Source: Schaalia sp. 19OD2882 (GTDB lineage: Bacteria > Actinomycetota > Actinomycetes > Actinomycetales > Actinomycetaceae). From it: a DNA stretch of 64,000 nucleotides. The stretch covers positions 1,240,001-1,304,000 of the forward strand of contig NZ_CP065521.1 in the NCBI RefSeq assembly GCF_018986735.1, written 5' to 3'. Both the position numbers and the translations under genes were made by a program. The notes under the pieces were generated by a model that worked only from the letters and a program-made list of their open reading frames with translations, was not told where the DNA came from and did no database searches. Shown piece by piece: positions 288 through 9,807 of the stretch (position 1 is its first letter; every line of letters begins with the position of its first letter).

Positions 288-1757
288 ATGACACGTCGGC
301 CCCGCATCGCCGTGTGCGGCATCCACATCGAGTCCTCGACCTTCACCCCGTACACCTCGGTGGAACAGGACTTCGTCGTCACCCGAGGAGATGCTCTCCT
401 GGCACGCTACGACTGGCTCGACACCGAATGGGCGCGGGCCGTCGACTGGGTGCCCGTCCTGCACGCCGGCGCCCTGCCCGGAGGCGTCGTCGAACGCGAC
501 ATCTACGAAAGATGGCGCGAAGAGATCCGCGCGGGCCTTGCCGCTGCCCACGCGGAGGCGCCCCTGGACGGAGTCTTCTTCGACATCCACGGGGCGATGA
601 GCGTCCACGGCTACGACGACGCCGAAGGCGACCTGGTCACCGCCGTACGTGACGCGGTCGGTCCCGAGCCGATGCTCTCAGCCTCCATGGACCTGCACGG
701 CAACGTCTCCGACGTGCTCTTCGACGCCTGCGACCTCATGACCTGCTACCGCATGGCCCCCCACGAGGACGCCCTGGAGTCACGCGAACGGGCAGCACGC
801 AACCTCGTCGATCGACTGCGACAGGGCCAGGGCAAACCCGCCAAGGCACTCGTCCACGTCCCTGTGCTGCTACCGGGGGAGAAGACCTCCACGCGGATCG
901 AACCCGGGAAGTGCCTCTACGCCCTGGTCCCCGTGGCCGAGAAAGTCGACGGAGTGACCGACGCCGCCATCTGGATCGGATTCGCTTGGGCCGACCAACC
1001 CCGCTGCAAGGGAGCCGTCGTCGTCTACGGGGACGACCCGAGGGCGGTCGAACTCGAAGCGCGCGCCCTCGGACAAGCCTTCTGGGACGTCCACGAGCAG
1101 TTCGAGTTCGTGGCCCCTGTGGCCTCCATGGCCGAATGCCTCCAATGGGCCGAGACCGCCAAACGTCCCACCTTCATCTCCGACTCCGGCGACAACCCCG
1201 GAGCCGGCGGAGCCGACGACGTCACCGTCGCCCTCGCACACCTGCTCGCCTGGCAACCCGTCATCGACGCAACCCTTGACGTCATCCACGCTTCCATCGT
1301 CGACCCCGTGGCGGCCGGCGTGTGCTGGGAGGCGGGAGTCGGCGCCGAGGTCACCGTGGAGATCGGCGGGCACATCGACACCCGAGCGCCCGGGCCCCAA
1401 CAGGTCACCGGAAGGGTCCGCGCCCTGACGGACGACCCCAGGGGCGGACACACCGCGGCCTTGACGATCGGTGGACTCACCGTCATCCTGACCACCTCAC
1501 GCAACCAGTACACGGAGCACGTCCAATTCGAACGCCTCGGGCTGGACGTACGCACCGCGGACGTCGTCGTGGTGAAAATCGGGTACCTGGAACCCGACCT
1601 CTTCGACGCGCAGGCGGACTGGAAGATGGCGCTCACGCCCGGTGGGGTCGACCAGGACCTCGTGCGCCTCGGCCACCACAGGATCGACCGCCCGATGTTC
1701 CCCTTCGACGCCGACATGCATCCCGGTCCGATGCAGGTGCGCGTCGTCGTGCCGTGA
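288..1757 (+). CDS. M81 family (MlrC-like) metallopeptidase
   Basis: The 489-residue protein matches the length and layout of microcystinase C (MlrC) and the wider M81 family. The start is ATG 288, with GGAGG about 8 nt upstream. Visible family marks are the N-terminal IAVCGIHIESSTF segment, DIHGAM near residue 95 and SMDLHGN near 134 (likely metal-ligand regions), and the C-terminal-domain motif DSGDNPGAGG, followed by QYTEHVQF. Family members are zinc-dependent hydrolases; MlrC cleaves a linear tetrapeptide, but most relatives have no known substrate. There is no signal peptide, so the enzyme is cytoplasmic. It lies between a sugar permease and a ROK kinase and overlaps the kinase start, so it more likely trims an imported glycoconjugate or amide-bearing sugar than a peptide toxin. 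That role is inference. Confidence 0.85.
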   Translation: MTRRPRIAVCGIHIESSTFTPYTSVEQDFVVTRGDALLARYDWLDTEWARAVDWVPVLHAGALPGGVVERDIYERWREEIRAGLAAAHAEAPLDGVFFDIHGAMSVHGYDDAEGDLVTAVRDAVGPEPMLSASMDLHGNVSDVLFDACDLMTCYRMAPHEDALESRERAARNLVDRLRQGQGKPAKALVHVPVLLPGEKTSTRIEPGKCLYALVPVAEKVDGVTDAAIWIGFAWADQPRCKGAVVVYGDDPRAVELEARALGQAFWDVHEQFEFVAPVASMAECLQWAETAKRPTFISDSGDNPGAGGADDVTVALAHLLAWQPVIDATLDVIHASIVDPVAAGVCWEAGVGAEVTVEIGGHIDTRAPGPQQVTGRVRALTDDPRGGHTAALTIGGLTVILTTSRNQYTEHVQFERLGLDVRTADVVVVKIGYLEPDLFDAQADWKMALTPGGVDQDLVRLGHHRIDRPMFPFDADMHPGPMQVRVVVP

Positions 1758-2692
1758 AGGCGCAGGAGGCGGCCTCGCGCACCTGCGCCCGCTGGGTCGG
1801 TGTCGACGTCGGAGGCACGAGCATCAAGTGGCGGGCTGCCAGCGCTGACGGCGCGACGGTGGACGAGGGGCGTGTCGCCTCACATCCGGCCAGTGTCGGC
1901 GAGCAGCTGCGGTGCCTGGGCGACTTCATCCGGTCCCGCCACGGTGAGGTCCGGGGAATCGGAGTGGTGTGCCCGGGGGTGATCGACGAGGTCCAGGGCC
2001 GTGTCGTCTATGCTGCGAACCTCGAATTGGCGGGGCTGCGTCCTGGTGAGCTGCTTGCCGGCGACAGTGGGATCCCCGTGCGCGTGGGACACGACGGGCG
2101 CGCTGCGGGACTGGCCGAAGGGCTGCTCGGGGCCGGCCGTGGCGCCCGCAGCTTCGTCATGATCCCCATCGGTACCGGCATTTCCGCCGCACTGCACCTG
2201 GCGGGCGGCATGTGGGGTGGCGCCACGTTCTGCGCGGGGGAGATCGGCCACACCCCCGTGTTCCCCGACGGTGAACCCTGCGCCTGCGGACAGCGCGGAT
2301 GCCTGGAGGTCTACGCCTCCGCCAAGGGGATCGCCCGGCGCTACGCGGCCGCCACCGGCCAGGACGTGGGGGCGCGGGGGGTCGAGCGGCTCCTGGGTGC
2401 CGACCCGCTGGCCGACGAGGTCTGGGCGACGGCGGCGAAGGCCCTCGCCCTGGAGTTGGCCCACCTGACCCTGTCCGTCGACCCGGAGCGTTTCGTCATC
2501 GGAGGCGGGCTTTCGCGGGCAGGGGACACGCTGCTGGCCCCCGTTCGGAGCGAACTCGACGCGCTGCTCGCATGGCGCGACGCGCCGAGTGTGACTGCCG
2601 CGCAACTCGGTGAGGAAGCAGGACGCTGGGGGGCACTGGCACTGGCCTCCATGGCCGCAGGATCCACTGACCACGAAAGGTGGAGCAGATGA
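1754..2692 (+). CDS. ROK family sugar kinase
   Basis: A 312-residue ROK protein starting at GTG 1754, which overlaps the upstream TGA as GTGA, implying coupled translation. It has the phosphate-binding motif DVGGT at residues 18-22, the catalytic Asp in GHD (Asp114), the sugar-contacting EIGH (163-166), and the ROK zinc site H166, C176, C178 and C183 in CACGQRGCLE. There is no N-terminal winged helix, so it is a kinase and not a NagC/XylR-type repressor. ROK kinases phosphorylate glucose, N-acetylmannosamine, N-acetylglucosamine or fructose; the sequence alone does not fix the substrate. Its place behind an ABC sugar permease and an M81 hydrolase suggests it phosphorylates the sugar released from the imported substrate. 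Confidence 0.9.
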   Translation: MKAQEAASRTCARWVGVDVGGTSIKWRAASADGATVDEGRVASHPASVGEQLRCLGDFIRSRHGEVRGIGVVCPGVIDEVQGRVVYAANLELAGLRPGELLAGDSGIPVRVGHDGRAAGLAEGLLGAGRGARSFVMIPIGTGISAALHLAGGMWGGATFCAGEIGHTPVFPDGEPCACGQRGCLEVYASAKGIARRYAAATGQDVGARGVERLLGADPLADEVWATAAKALALELAHLTLSVDPERFVIGGGLSRAGDTLLAPVRSELDALLAWRDAPSVTAAQLGEEAGRWGALALASMAAGSTDHERWSR

Positions 2693-4122
2693 CCCTCCTC
2701 GAGATCTGTGTGGACGACGTCAAGGGCGTGCGCGCGGCCCGGGACGCGGGCGCTGATCGTGCAGAGCTGTGCGCCGACCTCGAGGTCGGCGGCACCACGC
2801 CGCCCCTCGAACAGGTCCGGCGCGCATTGGAAGTGGCGCCTGCGGGGGGGCTCCAGGTGATCGTGCGCCCCAGGGGAGGCGACTTCGTCCACTCGGAAGC
2901 GGAAGTACGTGAGATGCTCGCCTCCATCCATCGCCTGAAGGAAGTGGAGGGCGACGCGCTTCGCGAGGCTCGCGCCCGGGGTGCGCAGCTGCCGCCCCTG
3001 GGGTTCGTCATCGGTGTGCTCACCCCCGACGGGCGAATCGACTCCGCCCAGGCTGCGCGTCTTCGCGAGGCAGCGGGGGCGGCTCCGTTGACCTTCCATC
3101 GCGCCTTCGACGTGGTCTGTGACCCCGCTGAAGCATTGGAGACCCTGGTCGGCCTGGGCTTCGACCGCGTGCTGACCACGGGCGGGCATCCGAGCGCGGC
3201 AGACACGGCGACCCTCGCCGAACTCACGCGCCGGGCCGCCGGGCGACTCGGCGTCATCGCTTCGGGCGGTGTGCGCGAGGCAAATGTGGTGGAGGTCCTG
3301 CGCGCCAGTGGCGCCCCGGAGGTCCACATGCGGTGCCCGCGTGAGCAGGGCGGCACTGACGCCGAACTGGCCCGACGCATTGTCGCTCTCGTCAGGGCCC
3401 ACGACGCTGCCGCCTCCCAGTGCGATGAGGATGAGGATGCGGGCAGGGATGCGACGCCCAGGACAGGTGATGTGCTGGTGGCTGGCGGTGCCCGCGCCGA
3501 AGTGCTCCGGCCCTTGACCCGGCCGGGCGGAAGAGCCCTGCGCATCGGAGTCTCCGGAGGCATTGGCTCCGGGAAGTCCTCGGTGTCGTGTGCCCTTGCC
3601 GCCCATGGAGCAGTGGTCGCCGACGCCGACGCGCTGGCGCGCGAGGTCGTTGCCCCCGGCTCGCTCGGCCTCCGCAAGGTCGTCGAGCGTTTCGGGCCGG
3701 CCGTCCTCGGCGAGGACGGCTCCCTGGACCGCGGTGCGCTGGGCGCAATCGTCTTTGCGGATCCTGCGGCCCGCCGGGACCTGGAAGCCATCACCCATCC
3801 GCTCATCGGGATGGCCGCCGAAGAGATCCTCGGGGCGGCCCCCGCAGGGGGCCTGGCGGTTCACGACGTGCCGCTGCTGGTGGAGACCGGCATGGAAGGC
3901 GAAGTGGATCTCGTGCTCATGGTCGACGCTGCGGTGGAGGCGCGCCTGGAGCGCCTGCGCAGGCGGGGAGTCCCGGCCGAGGACGCCCGGGCGCGCATGG
4001 CGGCCCAGGCCGACGCGGAGCGGAGGCGGGCGGTCGCCGATGTGTGGGTGGACAACAGCGGTACCGAGGAGGACCTGGCCGCCCTCGTCGATGCGATCGC
4101 CAAGCAGTGGCTGCGCCTGTGA
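2689..4122 (+). CDS. coaE: CutC-domain / dephospho-CoA kinase (CoaE) fusion protein
   Basis: One uninterrupted 477-codon frame carries two complete domains. Residues 1 to about 243 are a CutC TIM barrel: the LEICVDD start, ELCADLEVGGTTPP, VIVRPRGGDFVHSEAE, TFHRAFD and the VIASGGV strand. Residues about 283-477 are dephospho-CoA kinase, with P-loop GGIGSGKSS (Lys296), DADALAREV, HDVPLLVE and the LERLRRRG lid; CoaE performs the last step of coenzyme A synthesis. The domains are joined by about 40 acidic, low-complexity residues. ATG 2689 overlaps the kinase stop as ATGA and has GAAAGG upstream. An in-frame GTG at 3472 behind AGGACAGG could also start a free 216-residue CoaE. CutC was named for copper tolerance, but its biochemical function is unsettled. 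Actinobacterial coaE usually stands alone or carries a C-terminal UPF0157 (GrpB-like) domain, close to uvrB, which here lies 3.6 kb away. Confidence 0.88.
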   Translation: MTLLEICVDDVKGVRAARDAGADRAELCADLEVGGTTPPLEQVRRALEVAPAGGLQVIVRPRGGDFVHSEAEVREMLASIHRLKEVEGDALREARARGAQLPPLGFVIGVLTPDGRIDSAQAARLREAAGAAPLTFHRAFDVVCDPAEALETLVGLGFDRVLTTGGHPSAADTATLAELTRRAAGRLGVIASGGVREANVVEVLRASGAPEVHMRCPREQGGTDAELARRIVALVRAHDAAASQCDEDEDAGRDATPRTGDVLVAGGARAEVLRPLTRPGGRALRIGVSGGIGSGKSSVSCALAAHGAVVADADALAREVVAPGSLGLRKVVERFGPAVLGEDGSLDRGALGAIVFADPAARRDLEAITHPLIGMAAEEILGAAPAGGLAVHDVPLLVETGMEGEVDLVLMVDAAVEARLERLRRRGVPAEDARARMAAQADAERRRAVADVWVDNSGTEEDLAALVDAIAKQWLRL

Positions 4123-4131
4123 CCCGACCGG

Positions 4132-4701
4132 TCACCCGCCGGCCAGCAGGGCGATCACGACGACCAAGACCACCAGCGCCATGGCGATCCCCCAGATGGC
4201 GCTCATACCCGCCCAGATCTTCACCTGTCGCCACAGGTGGGAGTGGAACAGGGGTTGGAAGGCCTTCCACGCTTGCCGGTCCTCCTCCAAGGTCTGGGGA
4301 GTCTCGACCGCGTTGCGCCTGCGCAGGACCTTCCACGAGAGGTGGGCGAAGAACAAGCAGAGGGAGCCCCACAGGACACCCCCGAGGAAGAGCGTGAGCA
4401 CGTCGGCGGCTCGACTGGCCCCCACTTCGCCGGTGAGGACCATGGGCAGGCAGGTGGCCGCCAACAGTCCTGATCCGACGAAGAGGAACCCGGGGACGGC
4501 CAGCACCACCCACCCGCGCAGGGGCTGTGGAGCCTCCTGCGACTGGTCGCGCAGGCGCTTGAGGCCCCTCCACCGCCACCACCACAGGGCCACCATGAGG
4601 ACGAACCCTGCGCACACCATCCATGCGGCCATGTGCATGAGGAGCAACTGCGGAGGCGGGCCGGTCGTCGACGGTGCGTTCGGCGCGGCCAGAAGAGTCA
4701 C
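4132..4701 (-). CDS. Small integral membrane protein of unknown function
   Basis: A 189-residue protein translated from GTG 4701, which overlaps the stop of the upstream glycosidase as GTGA, so it is very likely made from the same transcript. After a short Pro/Thr-rich N-terminus there are about four hydrophobic segments: MHMAAWMVCAGFVLMVALWWW, VVLAVPGFLFVGSGLLAA, a segment around TLFLGGVLWGSLCLFFAHL, and the C-terminal MALVVLVVVIALL. Basic loops (RWRGLKRL, WKVLRRR) separate them. No catalytic motif or named family was recognised. The gene ends 9 bp from the convergent CutC-CoaE stop. Being coupled to a cytosolic glucosidase hints at a sugar-related membrane role, but nothing in the sequence shows one. 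Confidence 0.75.
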   Translation of the reverse strand: MTLLAAPNAPSTTGPPPQLLLMHMAAWMVCAGFVLMVALWWWRWRGLKRLRDQSQEAPQPLRGWVVLAVPGFLFVGSGLLAATCLPMVLTGEVGASRAADVLTLFLGGVLWGSLCLFFAHLSWKVLRRRNAVETPQTLEEDRQAWKAFQPLFHSHLWRQVKIWAGMSAIWGIAMALVVLVVVIALLAGG

Positions 4702-6425
4702 GACAGGACCCACCGAATCTCCCACGGAGCCAACTGATCCATTCGGCAGGCAGGGGCTTTGCCTCCCTCCCCTGCTTCGCATGCATTGGACAGGACGACC
4801 TCGCCGGAGGGCAGGTCGCAGGTGAGGGGGGCATCCGACATGTTGCCCACGGCATCCAGGCGCACCCCGTCGAACTCGCGGCGCACCCACCACAGCTTCG
4901 GGTCGTCGGCGTGGAGCAGCTCGAAGGAGCCGTCGACGAGGACGGGCAGTTCCTTGCGCAGGGCGATCATGCGACGGTAGAACTCGAAGGTCGAACCGGC
5001 CACCCCCACCTGGGCGGCTGCGTTGAGCCATGTGTGGTCGGGGTTCACGGGAAGCCACGGGGTTCCCGTGGTGAATCCGGCATGTTCGCCGGCATCCCAG
5101 TGGACGGGTGTACGGGCGTTGTCGCGGCTGGCATGGACGATGCCCGGCCACACGATGGAGGGGTCCTGGCCGCCGAGCTCGACCCGCTCACGCCACACCC
5201 CCTTCGTCTCCACGTCGTCGAATTGGTCGATGGAGGTCCACGGGTAGTCCGCCATGCCGAGTTCCTCACCCTGGTAGACGAAGGGTGTGCCCTGGTGGGC
5301 GTGGAGCATCCCACCCCAAGCGGTCGCCGAGGCGTGGCGGTGGTGCTCGGGTGAGCCGAAACGGCTCACAGGGCGCGGGCGATCGTGGTTGGACAGGTAC
5401 AGGGAGTTCCAGCCCCGGCCGGCAAGGCCCTTTGTCCACGAGGCCAAGGATCGCTTCATCTCCTGCAGAGGCATGGGGCGGGGGCGGAACTTGTCCCCGT
5501 CGGTCGCGTCCAACTCGACGTGCTCGAATTGGAAGACCATGTCGAGCTCTCGCCGGACCGGGTCGGTGGTCAGGCGCGCCTGGTCGATGGTGGCGCCCGG
5601 GCACTCACCGACCGTGAGGAACACCGTGTCGGGGTAGCGGTCGAAGACCTCCCGGTGCATCTCCTGCATCCACTCGTGGAAGCGCGGGCCGAAGAAGGCC
5701 TTGTCCAGGCCGCCCGAGGAGTCCTGGTAGAGGTCTTCCGGCTTGGAAATGCAGTTGATGACATCCATGCGGAAGCCGTCGACTCCGCGGTCGATCCACC
5801 GGCGCATCATGGCGTGCACTGCGTGCCGGACCTCGGGGTTCTCCCAGTTGAGGTCCGGTTGGCCGGGAGCGAAGAAGTGCAGGTAGTACTCGCCCGAGGC
5901 TTCGTCCAGTGTCCACACCGGCCCTGAGAAGGCGCTCACCCACCCATTCGGTTCGTCCCCGCGCCACTGGCCCGGGGCGGCGTCGGTGTCGACCGGAGCA
6001 CCTTCGGGCAGTTCACGCGGGCGGCGCCACACGTACCAGTCACGCTTGGGGTCCGCCGGGTTGCGGGATGCCTGGAACCACGGGTGCTGGTCGGAGGTGT
6101 GGTTGACCACCAGATCCATGACGATGCGGATCCCCGCCTCGTGCGCCGTCTCGATGAGACGCTCCAGGTCCGCGAGTGAGCCGAAGACAGGGTCGACGTC
6201 TTCGTAGTCGGAAATGTCGTAACCGTTGTCCTCCATGGGGGAGCGGTACACGGGTGAGAGCCACAGGACGTCGACCCCCAGGGTCGCCAAGTAGGGGATC
6301 CGGCTGGTGATGCCGGGGATGTCGCCGATTCCGTCACCGTCGGAGTCCTGGAATGAGCGCGGGTAGACCTGGTAGGCGGTCGCGGTGCGCCACCACGGTC
6401 GCCCTGGTGCCGAAAGGGTGCTCAT
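4698..6425 (-). CDS. GH13 alpha-glucosidase, oligo-1,6-glucosidase type
   Basis: A 575-residue GH13 enzyme. ATG 6425 is preceded on the minus strand by AGGAG at good spacing. The (beta/alpha)8 barrel motifs are all present: LVVNHT, GFRMDVIN with nucleophile Asp221, the acid/base Glu274 in TVGECPG, and SNHD with the transition-state Asp348. The residue after the nucleophile is Val222. In bacterial oligo-1,6-glucosidases and isomaltases this Val favours alpha-1,6 bonds, whereas alpha-1,4 enzymes carry Ala or Thr, so isomalto-oligosaccharides, panose or dextran fragments are the likely substrates. It has no signal peptide and acts in the cytosol. Trehalose-6-phosphate hydrolase is a less likely alternative. 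The next gene downstream is translationally coupled. Confidence 0.92.
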   Translation of the reverse strand: MSTLSAPGRPWWRTATAYQVYPRSFQDSDGDGIGDIPGITSRIPYLATLGVDVLWLSPVYRSPMEDNGYDISDYEDVDPVFGSLADLERLIETAHEAGIRIVMDLVVNHTSDQHPWFQASRNPADPKRDWYVWRRPRELPEGAPVDTDAAPGQWRGDEPNGWVSAFSGPVWTLDEASGEYYLHFFAPGQPDLNWENPEVRHAVHAMMRRWIDRGVDGFRMDVINCISKPEDLYQDSSGGLDKAFFGPRFHEWMQEMHREVFDRYPDTVFLTVGECPGATIDQARLTTDPVRRELDMVFQFEHVELDATDGDKFRPRPMPLQEMKRSLASWTKGLAGRGWNSLYLSNHDRPRPVSRFGSPEHHRHASATAWGGMLHAHQGTPFVYQGEELGMADYPWTSIDQFDDVETKGVWRERVELGGQDPSIVWPGIVHASRDNARTPVHWDAGEHAGFTTGTPWLPVNPDHTWLNAAAQVGVAGSTFEFYRRMIALRKELPVLVDGSFELLHADDPKLWWVRREFDGVRLDAVGNMSDAPLTCDLPSGEVVLSNACEAGEGGKAPACRMDQLAPWEIRWVLS

Positions 6426-6527
6426 CGGGAACTCCTGTCGTGTCGCTGGCCGGAGGGATGGATGTCGAAGTCGATGGTACGTGGTCCACGGCACGAGGGC
6501 TCCCCGGGCCCGGACCGGTTCGTGGCA

Positions 6528-7707: not shown

Positions 7708-9807
7708 GTGAGCAGCCAACGCATCCTCCGGGCAGAACACCCCTTCCAGGTCATCTCCGAGTACTCGCCTTCCGGCGATCAGCCGAAGGCCATCAAGGAA
7801 CTTGCGGCACGCATTCGCGACGGCGAACAGGATGTGGTCCTTCTGGGAGCCACCGGAACCGGCAAGTCGGCCACCACCGCGTGGCTCATCGAGGAGCTGC
7901 AGCGCCCCGCGCTGGTGATGGAACCGAACAAGACGCTGACCGCCCAGTTGGCCGCCGAATTCCGTGAACTGCTGCCCCACAATGCGGTGGAGTACTTCGT
8001 GTCCTACTACGACTACTACCAACCCGAGGCCTACGTGCCCCAGACGGACACGTACATCGAGAAGGACTCCTCCATCAACGACGAGGTCGAACGCCTGCGG
8101 CACAGCGCCACGAACTCCCTGCTCACCCGACGTGACACCGTGGTGGTCTCCTCGGTGTCGTGCATCTACGGCTTGGGCACACCGGAGGAGTACGTCGCAC
8201 GCATGGTCGAGCTGGAACGGGGCATGACCATCGACCGCGATGACCTGCTCCGAGGATTCGTCGCCATGCAGTACACACGCAATGACCTGTCCTTCACCCG
8301 CGGCACCTTCAGGGTGCGCGGGGACACGGTGGAGATCATCCCCGTGTACGAGGAACTGGCGATCCGCATCGAGTTCTTCGGTGACGAGGTCGAAGCGCTT
8401 GCCCTGCTTCACCCGTTGACCGGCGACGTCATCTCCGAGGTCGACCACGTCTTCCTCTTCCCGGCCTCCCACTACGTGGCCGGGGAGGAACGCATGGCCC
8501 GAGCACTGGCCGGGATCGAGGAGGAACTGGCCGAGCGCCTGGAGTGGTTCGAGTCCCAGGGCAAACTCCTGGAGGCCCAGCGTCTCCGCATGCGCACGAC
8601 CTTCGACCTGGAGATGCTCCGAGAGATCGGGTCCTGCGCCGGGGTCGAGAACTACTCGCGTCACATCGACGGCCGAGATGCGGGTACGGCGCCGCACACA
8701 CTGCTCGACTACTTCCCGGAGGACTTCCTGCTGGTCATTGACGAATCCCATGTGACGGTTCCCCAGATCGGCGCCATGTTCGAAGGCGACGCCTCGCGCA
8801 AACGCACTCTGGTCGACCACGGATTCCGCCTGCCCTCGGCCTTGGACAACCGGCCGCTCACGTGGGACGAGTTCACCCAACGCATCGGCCAGACCGTGTA
8901 CCTGTCGGCGACCCCGGGCCCCTATGAGCTGGACCGCTCCGACGGAGTGGTCGAGCAGATCATCCGTCCCACCGGGCTGGTCGACCCGAAGGTCGTCGTC
9001 AAACCCACCCGGGGGCAGATCGACGACCTGCTGGAGCAGGTCCGCCTGCGTGTCGAGAAGGATGAACGCGTCCTGGTGACCACCTTGACGAAGAAGATGG
9101 CGGAGGACCTCACGACCTACTTGGCACAGCGCGGCATCCGCGTGGAGTACCTGCACTCGGACGTGGACACCCTGCGGCGCGTCGAGCTGCTGCGGGAGTT
9201 GCGTCAAGGTGCATTCGACGTCCTGGTCGGCATCAACTTGCTGCGTGAGGGTCTGGACCTTCCGGAGGTTTCCCTGGTGTCGATCCTCGATGCGGACAAG
9301 GAAGGGTTCCTGCGGTCGACCAGGTCCCTCATCCAGACGATCGGACGAGCTGCCCGCAATGTCTCCGGTGAGGTCCACATGTACGCCGACACCCTCACCG
9401 ATTCCATGAAGGCCGCCATCGACGAAACCGAACGGCGGCGCGCGATCCAGCTGGCATTCAACAAGGACCACGGCATCGACCCGCAGCCGCTGCGCAAGAA
9501 GATCGCCGACGTCACCGACATGCTCGCCCGCGAACAGGTCGACACCGAGGAGCTGCTGGCAGGCGGGTACCGCCGGGAAAAGGGCGCCCAGTCGGCGCGG
9601 CCGGCGACGGGCCCGGGTGCGGGAGGCCCACGGACGAGGGCGTCCCTGGCGGGTTCGGCTCGCGCCGAGTTGGAGGAGCTCATCGAGGAACTCTCCGCGC
9701 AGATGATGACCGCCGCGCAGGACCTCCAATTCGAGATCGCTGCTCGCCTGCGAGACGAGGTTGCGGACCTGAAGAAGGAACTGAGGCAGATGAAGGCCGC
9801 GCAATGA
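7708..9807 (+). CDS. uvrB: Excinuclease ABC subunit B
   Basis: A 699-residue UvrB of normal length. It binds UvrA, verifies the lesion and recruits UvrC during nucleotide excision repair. Visible features are the Q-motif region [11 protein letters not shown], Walker [11 protein letters not shown] (Lys53), the beta-hairpin sequence [16 protein letters not shown] that clamps [11 protein letters not shown] (Walker B/DExH), the helicase motifs RPTGLVDP and [10 protein letters not shown], and the C-terminal UVR domain (about 656-691) that contacts UvrC. The GTG start is chosen because the -10 box sits 6 nt upstream and conserved sequence begins soon after. The gene is monocistronic and probably SOS-controlled. 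In many actinobacteria it follows coaE directly, but here GH13 and DUF559 genes separate the two. Confidence 0.98.

Follow-up and report, generated by a model that had tools for sequence, protein, structure and literature searches.

The frame at positions 2689-4122 (+) of the window, by which we mean the whole stretch of 64,000 nucleotides analysed here, joins a CutC domain and a dephospho-CoA kinase (CoaE) domain in one chain. We consider it probable that this is a real, lineage-specific gene fusion that came about through loss of a stop codon. The frame is uninterrupted and encodes 477 amino acids without an internal stop; its stop codon is located at 4120-4122 and the computed mass of the fused product is 49.5 kDa. 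Pfam places CutC (PF03932) at residues 3-214 (E 1.5e-48, profile positions 2-198 of 202) and CoaE (PF01121) at residues 286-460 (E 3.8e-52, profile positions 3-178 of 180). Both domains are nearly full-length in a single frame, which far exceeds chance, and the fused frame is real in the sequence, just as the original prediction of two complete domains in one frame had stated. Pfam detected CutC and CoaE only: an N-terminal PF01470 domain is absent, and so is a C-terminal PF04229 domain, the chain ending shortly past CoaE. The CoaE half passes the NCBIfam model TIGR00152 with 137.2 bits (cut-off 65.55). It passes the cut-off of NF002879 as well, yet covers only positions 2-191 of this 395-position model. 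Against the NCBIfam equivalog PRK11572 (E. coli type copper homeostasis protein CutC) the CutC half reached 126.2 bits at a cut-off of 311, and judged by this score it is a member of the family but other than that equivalog. The solved CutC chains 3iwp, 1twd, 2bdq and 4r9x match the CutC half, and CoaE structures match the other half separately. The start codon ATG 2689 shares bases with the stop codon of the preceding ROK gene (ATGA) and has a Shine-Dalgarno pairing of -10.3 kcal/mol, a strength equalled by 3.0% of 2000 random sites.

The gene coaE is essential. The genome, here termed G000, is a single contig of 2,563,835 bases and 99.94% complete, and it contains one PF01121 match and one CutC match, both inside the fused frame. 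A second intact coaE elsewhere in the genome, which had been named beforehand as a finding that would speak against the fusion, is ruled out by the lone PF01121 match. Because it is the only copy found in the genome, the CoaE half must work. The kinase part (residues 284-477, positions 3538-4122, +), delimited by Pfam and structure alignment, retains Lys296, Asp314, Leu396 and Arg422. Counting along the alignment to 6n39_A equates these residues to the P-loop Lys14, the DxD Asp32, the substrate-site Leu114 and the lid Arg140 of mycobacterial CoaE, all of which are described as critical in the accessible part of PMC3019153. A ColabFold model, built on 21 aligned sequences, displays two confident folds, with a pLDDT below 50 at residues 249-254 and a pTM of 0.56. 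This pTM, together with the weak link at 249-254, suggests that the predicted halves have no fixed arrangement. Most likely, as far as the sequence tells, each half does its ordinary job with a flexible acidic tether in between.

The junction can be compared base by base with relatives in which the two genes are separate. The CutC part comprises residues 1-243 (positions 2689-3417, +). Past a conserved Val-Arg near its end, the cutC genes of G002 and G032 continue for seven codons and then stop at TAG, and that of G028 continues for six codons and stops at TAA. In G000 the Val-Arg is followed by seven codons and then by CAG (Gln244, positions 3418-3420, +), which differs from TAG by one transition. 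In G002, coaE lies in the same frame as cutC behind the TAG stop. The linker of G000 extends from Gln244 to Asp261 (positions 3418-3471, +) and contains 7 acidic and 2 basic amino acids among about 18 residues. A GATGAG repeat of 2.7 copies (3424-3439, +) encodes its acidic DEDED run. An acidic linker had been predicted and is indeed present, but at about 18 residues it is shorter than the approximately 40 that had been assumed; what follows is an N-terminal extension of CoaE (residues 262-283, positions 3472-3537, +) that is also present in the relatives' free CoaE proteins. Codon usage is poorest in the linker. Its codon index is 0.308, whereas CutC scores 0.568 and the CoaE domain 0.611; of the 460 windows along the frame, the ten with the lowest index all start at residues 243-252. 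Among 3384 windows taken from six other genes of G000, 8 have an index of 0.308 or less. The simplest reading is that the linker is probably a former spacer that has become translated only recently. In G002, G032 and G028 the spacers to the nearest in-frame ATG measure 9, 10 and 17 bases. In G000 the spacer measures 51 bases up to GTG 3472, or about 36-39 up to the site aligned with the ATGs of the relatives. Either value exceeds the relatives' 9-17 bases, and hence more than the stop codon must have changed.

The fusion is rare. Six-frame searches with the fused protein covered 213 genomes of the family, 396 of the order and 394 of the class; the order search added 361 further genomes and the class search 354, giving 928 distinct genomes. 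Among the matches listed for these genomes, G000 alone has a stop-free match to residues 1-477, and no other stop-free CutC-CoaE match is among them. First-pass scoring retained the best candidates of each genome, up to seven in the family and up to four in the order and class, and a fused match is expected near the top. The proposed search for the architecture across the family has therewith returned one genome among the matches listed for 213, so that the fusion does not look common in the family. G002 and G154, the latter from another genus, match across both halves, each through one stop (TAG and TGA, respectively). Two further candidates were not counted as fusions. The match in G149 covers residues 1-302 with one TAA, and in the 8.6 kb surrounding its CutC no CoaE was detected by tblastn; the long match in G137 (residues 85-470) is interrupted by one TGA. 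In the protein collection, where candidates were restricted to the proteins with most shared words, PF03932 and PF01121 were combined neither in the best 120 of 991 relatives of the whole protein nor in the best 120 of 134 relatives of the CutC half. A contig scan of named genomes with P0001 yielded 50 pattern matches, none of which was confirmed as a relative. CoaE is matched in 34 and CutC in 25 of the 35 genomes of the genus; the species itself is represented by one genome. Judged by title and abstract, the fusion is described in none of the papers listed by the literature searches, which is weak evidence, as most subscription papers fall outside this scope. The lone paper of the literature searched that mentions both CutC and "dephospho-CoA kinase", as far as its accessible part goes, is a typing study of streptococci.

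The gene neighbourhood offers a plausible route to the fused frame. In G033, G009, G011 and G031 the distance from rpsA to the coaE behind it is about 0.6 kb at most. The rpsA of G000 ends at 1,228,184 and the fused gene starts at 1,242,689; the interval is occupied by genes that look like a ROK regulator, an alpha-L-fucosidase, a binding protein without a Pfam match, permeases, MlrC and a ROK protein, and also by genes that, judged by eye, resemble a peptide transporter. The M81/MlrC family gene (288-1757, +; PF07364 and PF07171 on L057:18288-19754) and the ROK family gene (1754-2692, +; PF00480) belong to the same operon as the fused gene. Five of the 35 genus genomes carry this operon (ABC transporter, M81/MlrC, ROK kinase, cutC) behind rpsA. 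Its core of binding protein, two permeases, MlrC, ROK and cutC is common to G000, G002, G032, G028 and G017, and these five are also the only ones of the 25 CutC-bearing genus genomes with cutC at most 15 kb from rpsA. A close relative of the fucosidase is found in G028 only among the other four. In G000, G002, G032 and G028, thus in four of the five, coaE follows directly behind cutC. In G017 the operon is placed between rpsA and uvrB (L114), and coaE is found elsewhere (G017:C1:2315960-2316619). G154 harbors a divergent cutC between rpsA and coaE (L115:6643-8025, +), in the same frame as coaE with one TGA in between, and there is no sign of the remaining operon genes at this locus. As a second case of cutC next to coaE, the G154 locus may point to a link between the two genes, or it may be a remnant of the operon.

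Downstream of the fused gene, a convergent alpha-glucosidase-like gene of the alpha-amylase family (4698-6494, -) is also found behind coaE in G033, G002, G032 and G026. Between coaE and this gene lies a small gene at 4132-4650 (-) that possibly encodes a membrane protein and has no Pfam match. The old downstream neighbour uvrB (7708-9807, +; named by eye from its sequence) was used for a tree. The uvrB tree groups G000 with G028 and G033 (95/83) and then with G031 (100/97). With this grouping the operon has a patchy distribution in the slot between rpsA and coaE, so that it was either gained more than once or repeatedly lost; the CutC tree is compatible with either course. The CoaE tree conflicts with the uvrB tree and places G000 beside species that carry a fusion of pyroglutamyl peptidase (Pcp) to CoaE (90/94). 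In the AU test on CoaE, the group of G000, G028 and G033 received a p of 0.033, and a p of 0.105 with G031 added. Exchange of coaE or a similar base composition may account for the conflict. Predicted transcription signals did not stand out. In the window region 1600-4700 there were no promoter-like sites, with a consensus that fits high-GC actinobacteria poorly, and two terminator-like sites (0.5 expected by chance), one of them within the CoaE part. L057:13300-20000 contained one promoter-like site, in front of the fucosidase gene (0.3 expected), and six terminator-like sites (3.2 expected). None of these counts is distinguishable from chance.

Taken as a whole, a tolerated fusion through stop loss is the most likely reading, and by sequence comparison the stop was most likely lost in a pre-existing cutC-coaE pair, with the spacer becoming the acidic linker. 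An operon ending in cutC would have been placed between rpsA and coaE in some species of the genus, and this would have brought the essential coaE directly behind cutC. In the lineage of G000 the stop codon of cutC, which two relatives have as TAG, would then have changed to CAG. With the spacer to coaE in frame and free of stops, ribosomes would run from CutC into CoaE and produce the 49.5-kDa protein. We infer this order of events, the synthesis of the full-length protein, and a fusion that is tolerated without having been selected for. Against this reading stand the longer spacer, the conflicting CoaE tree and the single genome available for the species. An accidental fusion, once the operon had come to precede coaE, was one of two origins put forward in the original prediction. 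It has been strengthened by the rpsA-coaE neighbours in several relatives with the operon in between in G000 and three others, and by the alignment of the cutC stop of two relatives with a sense codon in G000.

The sequence alone is compatible with one product as well as with two. That the long frame exists while a free CoaE of about 22 kDa, initiated at GTG 3472 or GTG 3478, supplies the enzyme and the long protein is a by-product appears unlikely to us. Both GTG codons are in frame and lie within about seven codons of the aligned coaE starts of the relatives. The coaE ATGs of G002, G032 and G028 align with residues 257-258 of G000, where there is no start codon, and GTG 3472 (Val262), 4-5 codons downstream, is the next in-frame start. 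An internal CoaE start at GTG 3472 had been suggested before. It is in frame and thus possible, but its Shine-Dalgarno pairing of -5.8 kcal/mol is ordinary, as 32.8% of 2000 random window sites are equally strong. GTG 3478 does better at -9.2 kcal/mol (7.1% of random sites). Several other in-frame start codons pair as well or better, namely ATG 3328, GTG 2857, GTG 2863, GTG 4042 and TTG 3088. A fused frame would also result if the two genes were in fact separate and an error of sequencing or assembly had masked the stop or frame change between them. A single base decides between TAG and CAG, TGA codons are present in another frame at 3426, 3432 and 3468, and the protein collection record P0002 describes the gene as a shorter, 264-aa CoaE starting at ATG 3328 inside CutC (window 3328-4122, +). 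We nevertheless regard such an error as quite improbable, given an assembly of one contig at the completeness stated above and a junction without a long single-base run. The shorter call can be explained without an error: ATG 3328 has a pairing of -10.7 kcal/mol, the strongest of the 36 in-frame starts (2.5% of random sites are equal), and codes for part of the conserved CutC sequence EVHM. The start in P0002, and with it the collected gene call, is probably wrong and was drawn there by a chance Shine-Dalgarno match.

The other origin put forward in the original prediction, in which sugar uptake would be linked to the supply of CoA, has fared less well. Here the fusion would have been selected for a coupling of CoaE with CutC or the sugar pathway, by way of fixed dosage, channelling or regulation, and we hold this to be very unlikely. 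In its favour, coaE is last behind the operon in 4 of 35 genus genomes, and G154 has cutC in front of coaE without the rest of the operon. Furthermore, C-terminal partners affect the folding of CoaE in the mycobacterial CoaE-UPF0157 protein, according to the accessible part of PMC2765170. However, the model gives no fixed packing of the halves, other members of the genus have the unrelated Pcp fused at this end of CoaE, and the N-terminal half in G026 no longer matches the Pcp family although the frame is still open. The linker, moreover, resembles untranslated DNA that became translated only recently. Beyond the position of coaE behind the operon we found no positive evidence for metabolic coupling, and a shared pathway is not supported by anything tested in the sequence. 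A more specific version is equally unlikely: capture of coaE behind the sugar operon and fusion to CutC would tie CoA supply to sugar use, with CutC binding or making a metabolite of the operon's pathway and, as a tethered domain, modulating the only dephospho-CoA kinase of the cell. If true, coupling would give a direct handle on the function of CutC. In E. coli, deletions of cutC are hard to interpret, as the small RNA MicL loses its promoter together with the deleted region (accessible part of PMC8216713).

Read as a tolerated fusion, the locus presents an essential single-copy enzyme that was caught after its fusion to an unrelated neighbour. The likely intermediates survive in relatives: rpsA next to coaE, then the operon with cutC and coaE separated by a stop, and finally the fused frame. 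The case also cautions that gene fusions alone are a poor ground for inferring pathway links. It is a neat and rare example of an essential gene that has newly undergone fusion, and so far nothing points to a novel function.

Fusions of either domain to other partners are known. The animal bifunctional CoA synthase (PPAT-DPCK) likewise contains a CoaE-type kinase within a longer chain, and the CoaE half of G000 is matched by entry 2f6r. In the animal protein the kinase is joined to the enzyme that acts just before it in CoA synthesis; CutC is not known as a member of this pathway. The actinobacterial CoaE-UPF0157 proteins (GrpB, PF04229), such as CoaE of M. tuberculosis, also combine CoaE and an extra domain in one chain, and many CoaE relatives among the best 120 of 991 carry PF04229. 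In contrast to the fusion in G000, the extra domain is of another family and is attached to the opposite end of CoaE. Closest in arrangement are the Pcp-CoaE proteins, in which an extra enzyme domain is N-terminal to CoaE, behind rpsA and in the same genus. PF01470 and PF01121 are both above the Pfam cut-off in a gene right after rpsA in G012 (L119:2229-3674, -), G014 (L120:909-2177, +) and G015 (L118:2449-3873, -), and P0004-P0007 of the protein collection carry the same pair. A long frame in G026 (L117:1762-3051, +) ends in CoaE, and its N-terminal half, without a Pfam match, looks like a decayed pyroglutamyl peptidase. These proteins differ from the fusion in G000 in their partner, their separate origin and their presence in several species. 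By analogy, they suggest that CoaE tolerates N-terminal partners and, together with the CutC fusion at the same end, that the CoaE N-terminus is permissive in the genus. CutC is fused to ROK (PF03932 and PF00480) in 20 of the best 120 of 134 CutC relatives. ROK lies behind CutC in both proteins checked for order (P0125 and P0132), so that the partner is attached to the C-terminus of CutC as in G000. In contrast to G000, this partner is ROK, without CoaE, and in the G000 operon the ROK gene precedes cutC. The CutC-ROK fusions and the adjacency in the operon suggest that CutC and a ROK sugar kinase act together. Thus, the Pcp-CoaE and CutC-ROK proteins demonstrate that both ends joined in G000 tolerate fusion elsewhere.
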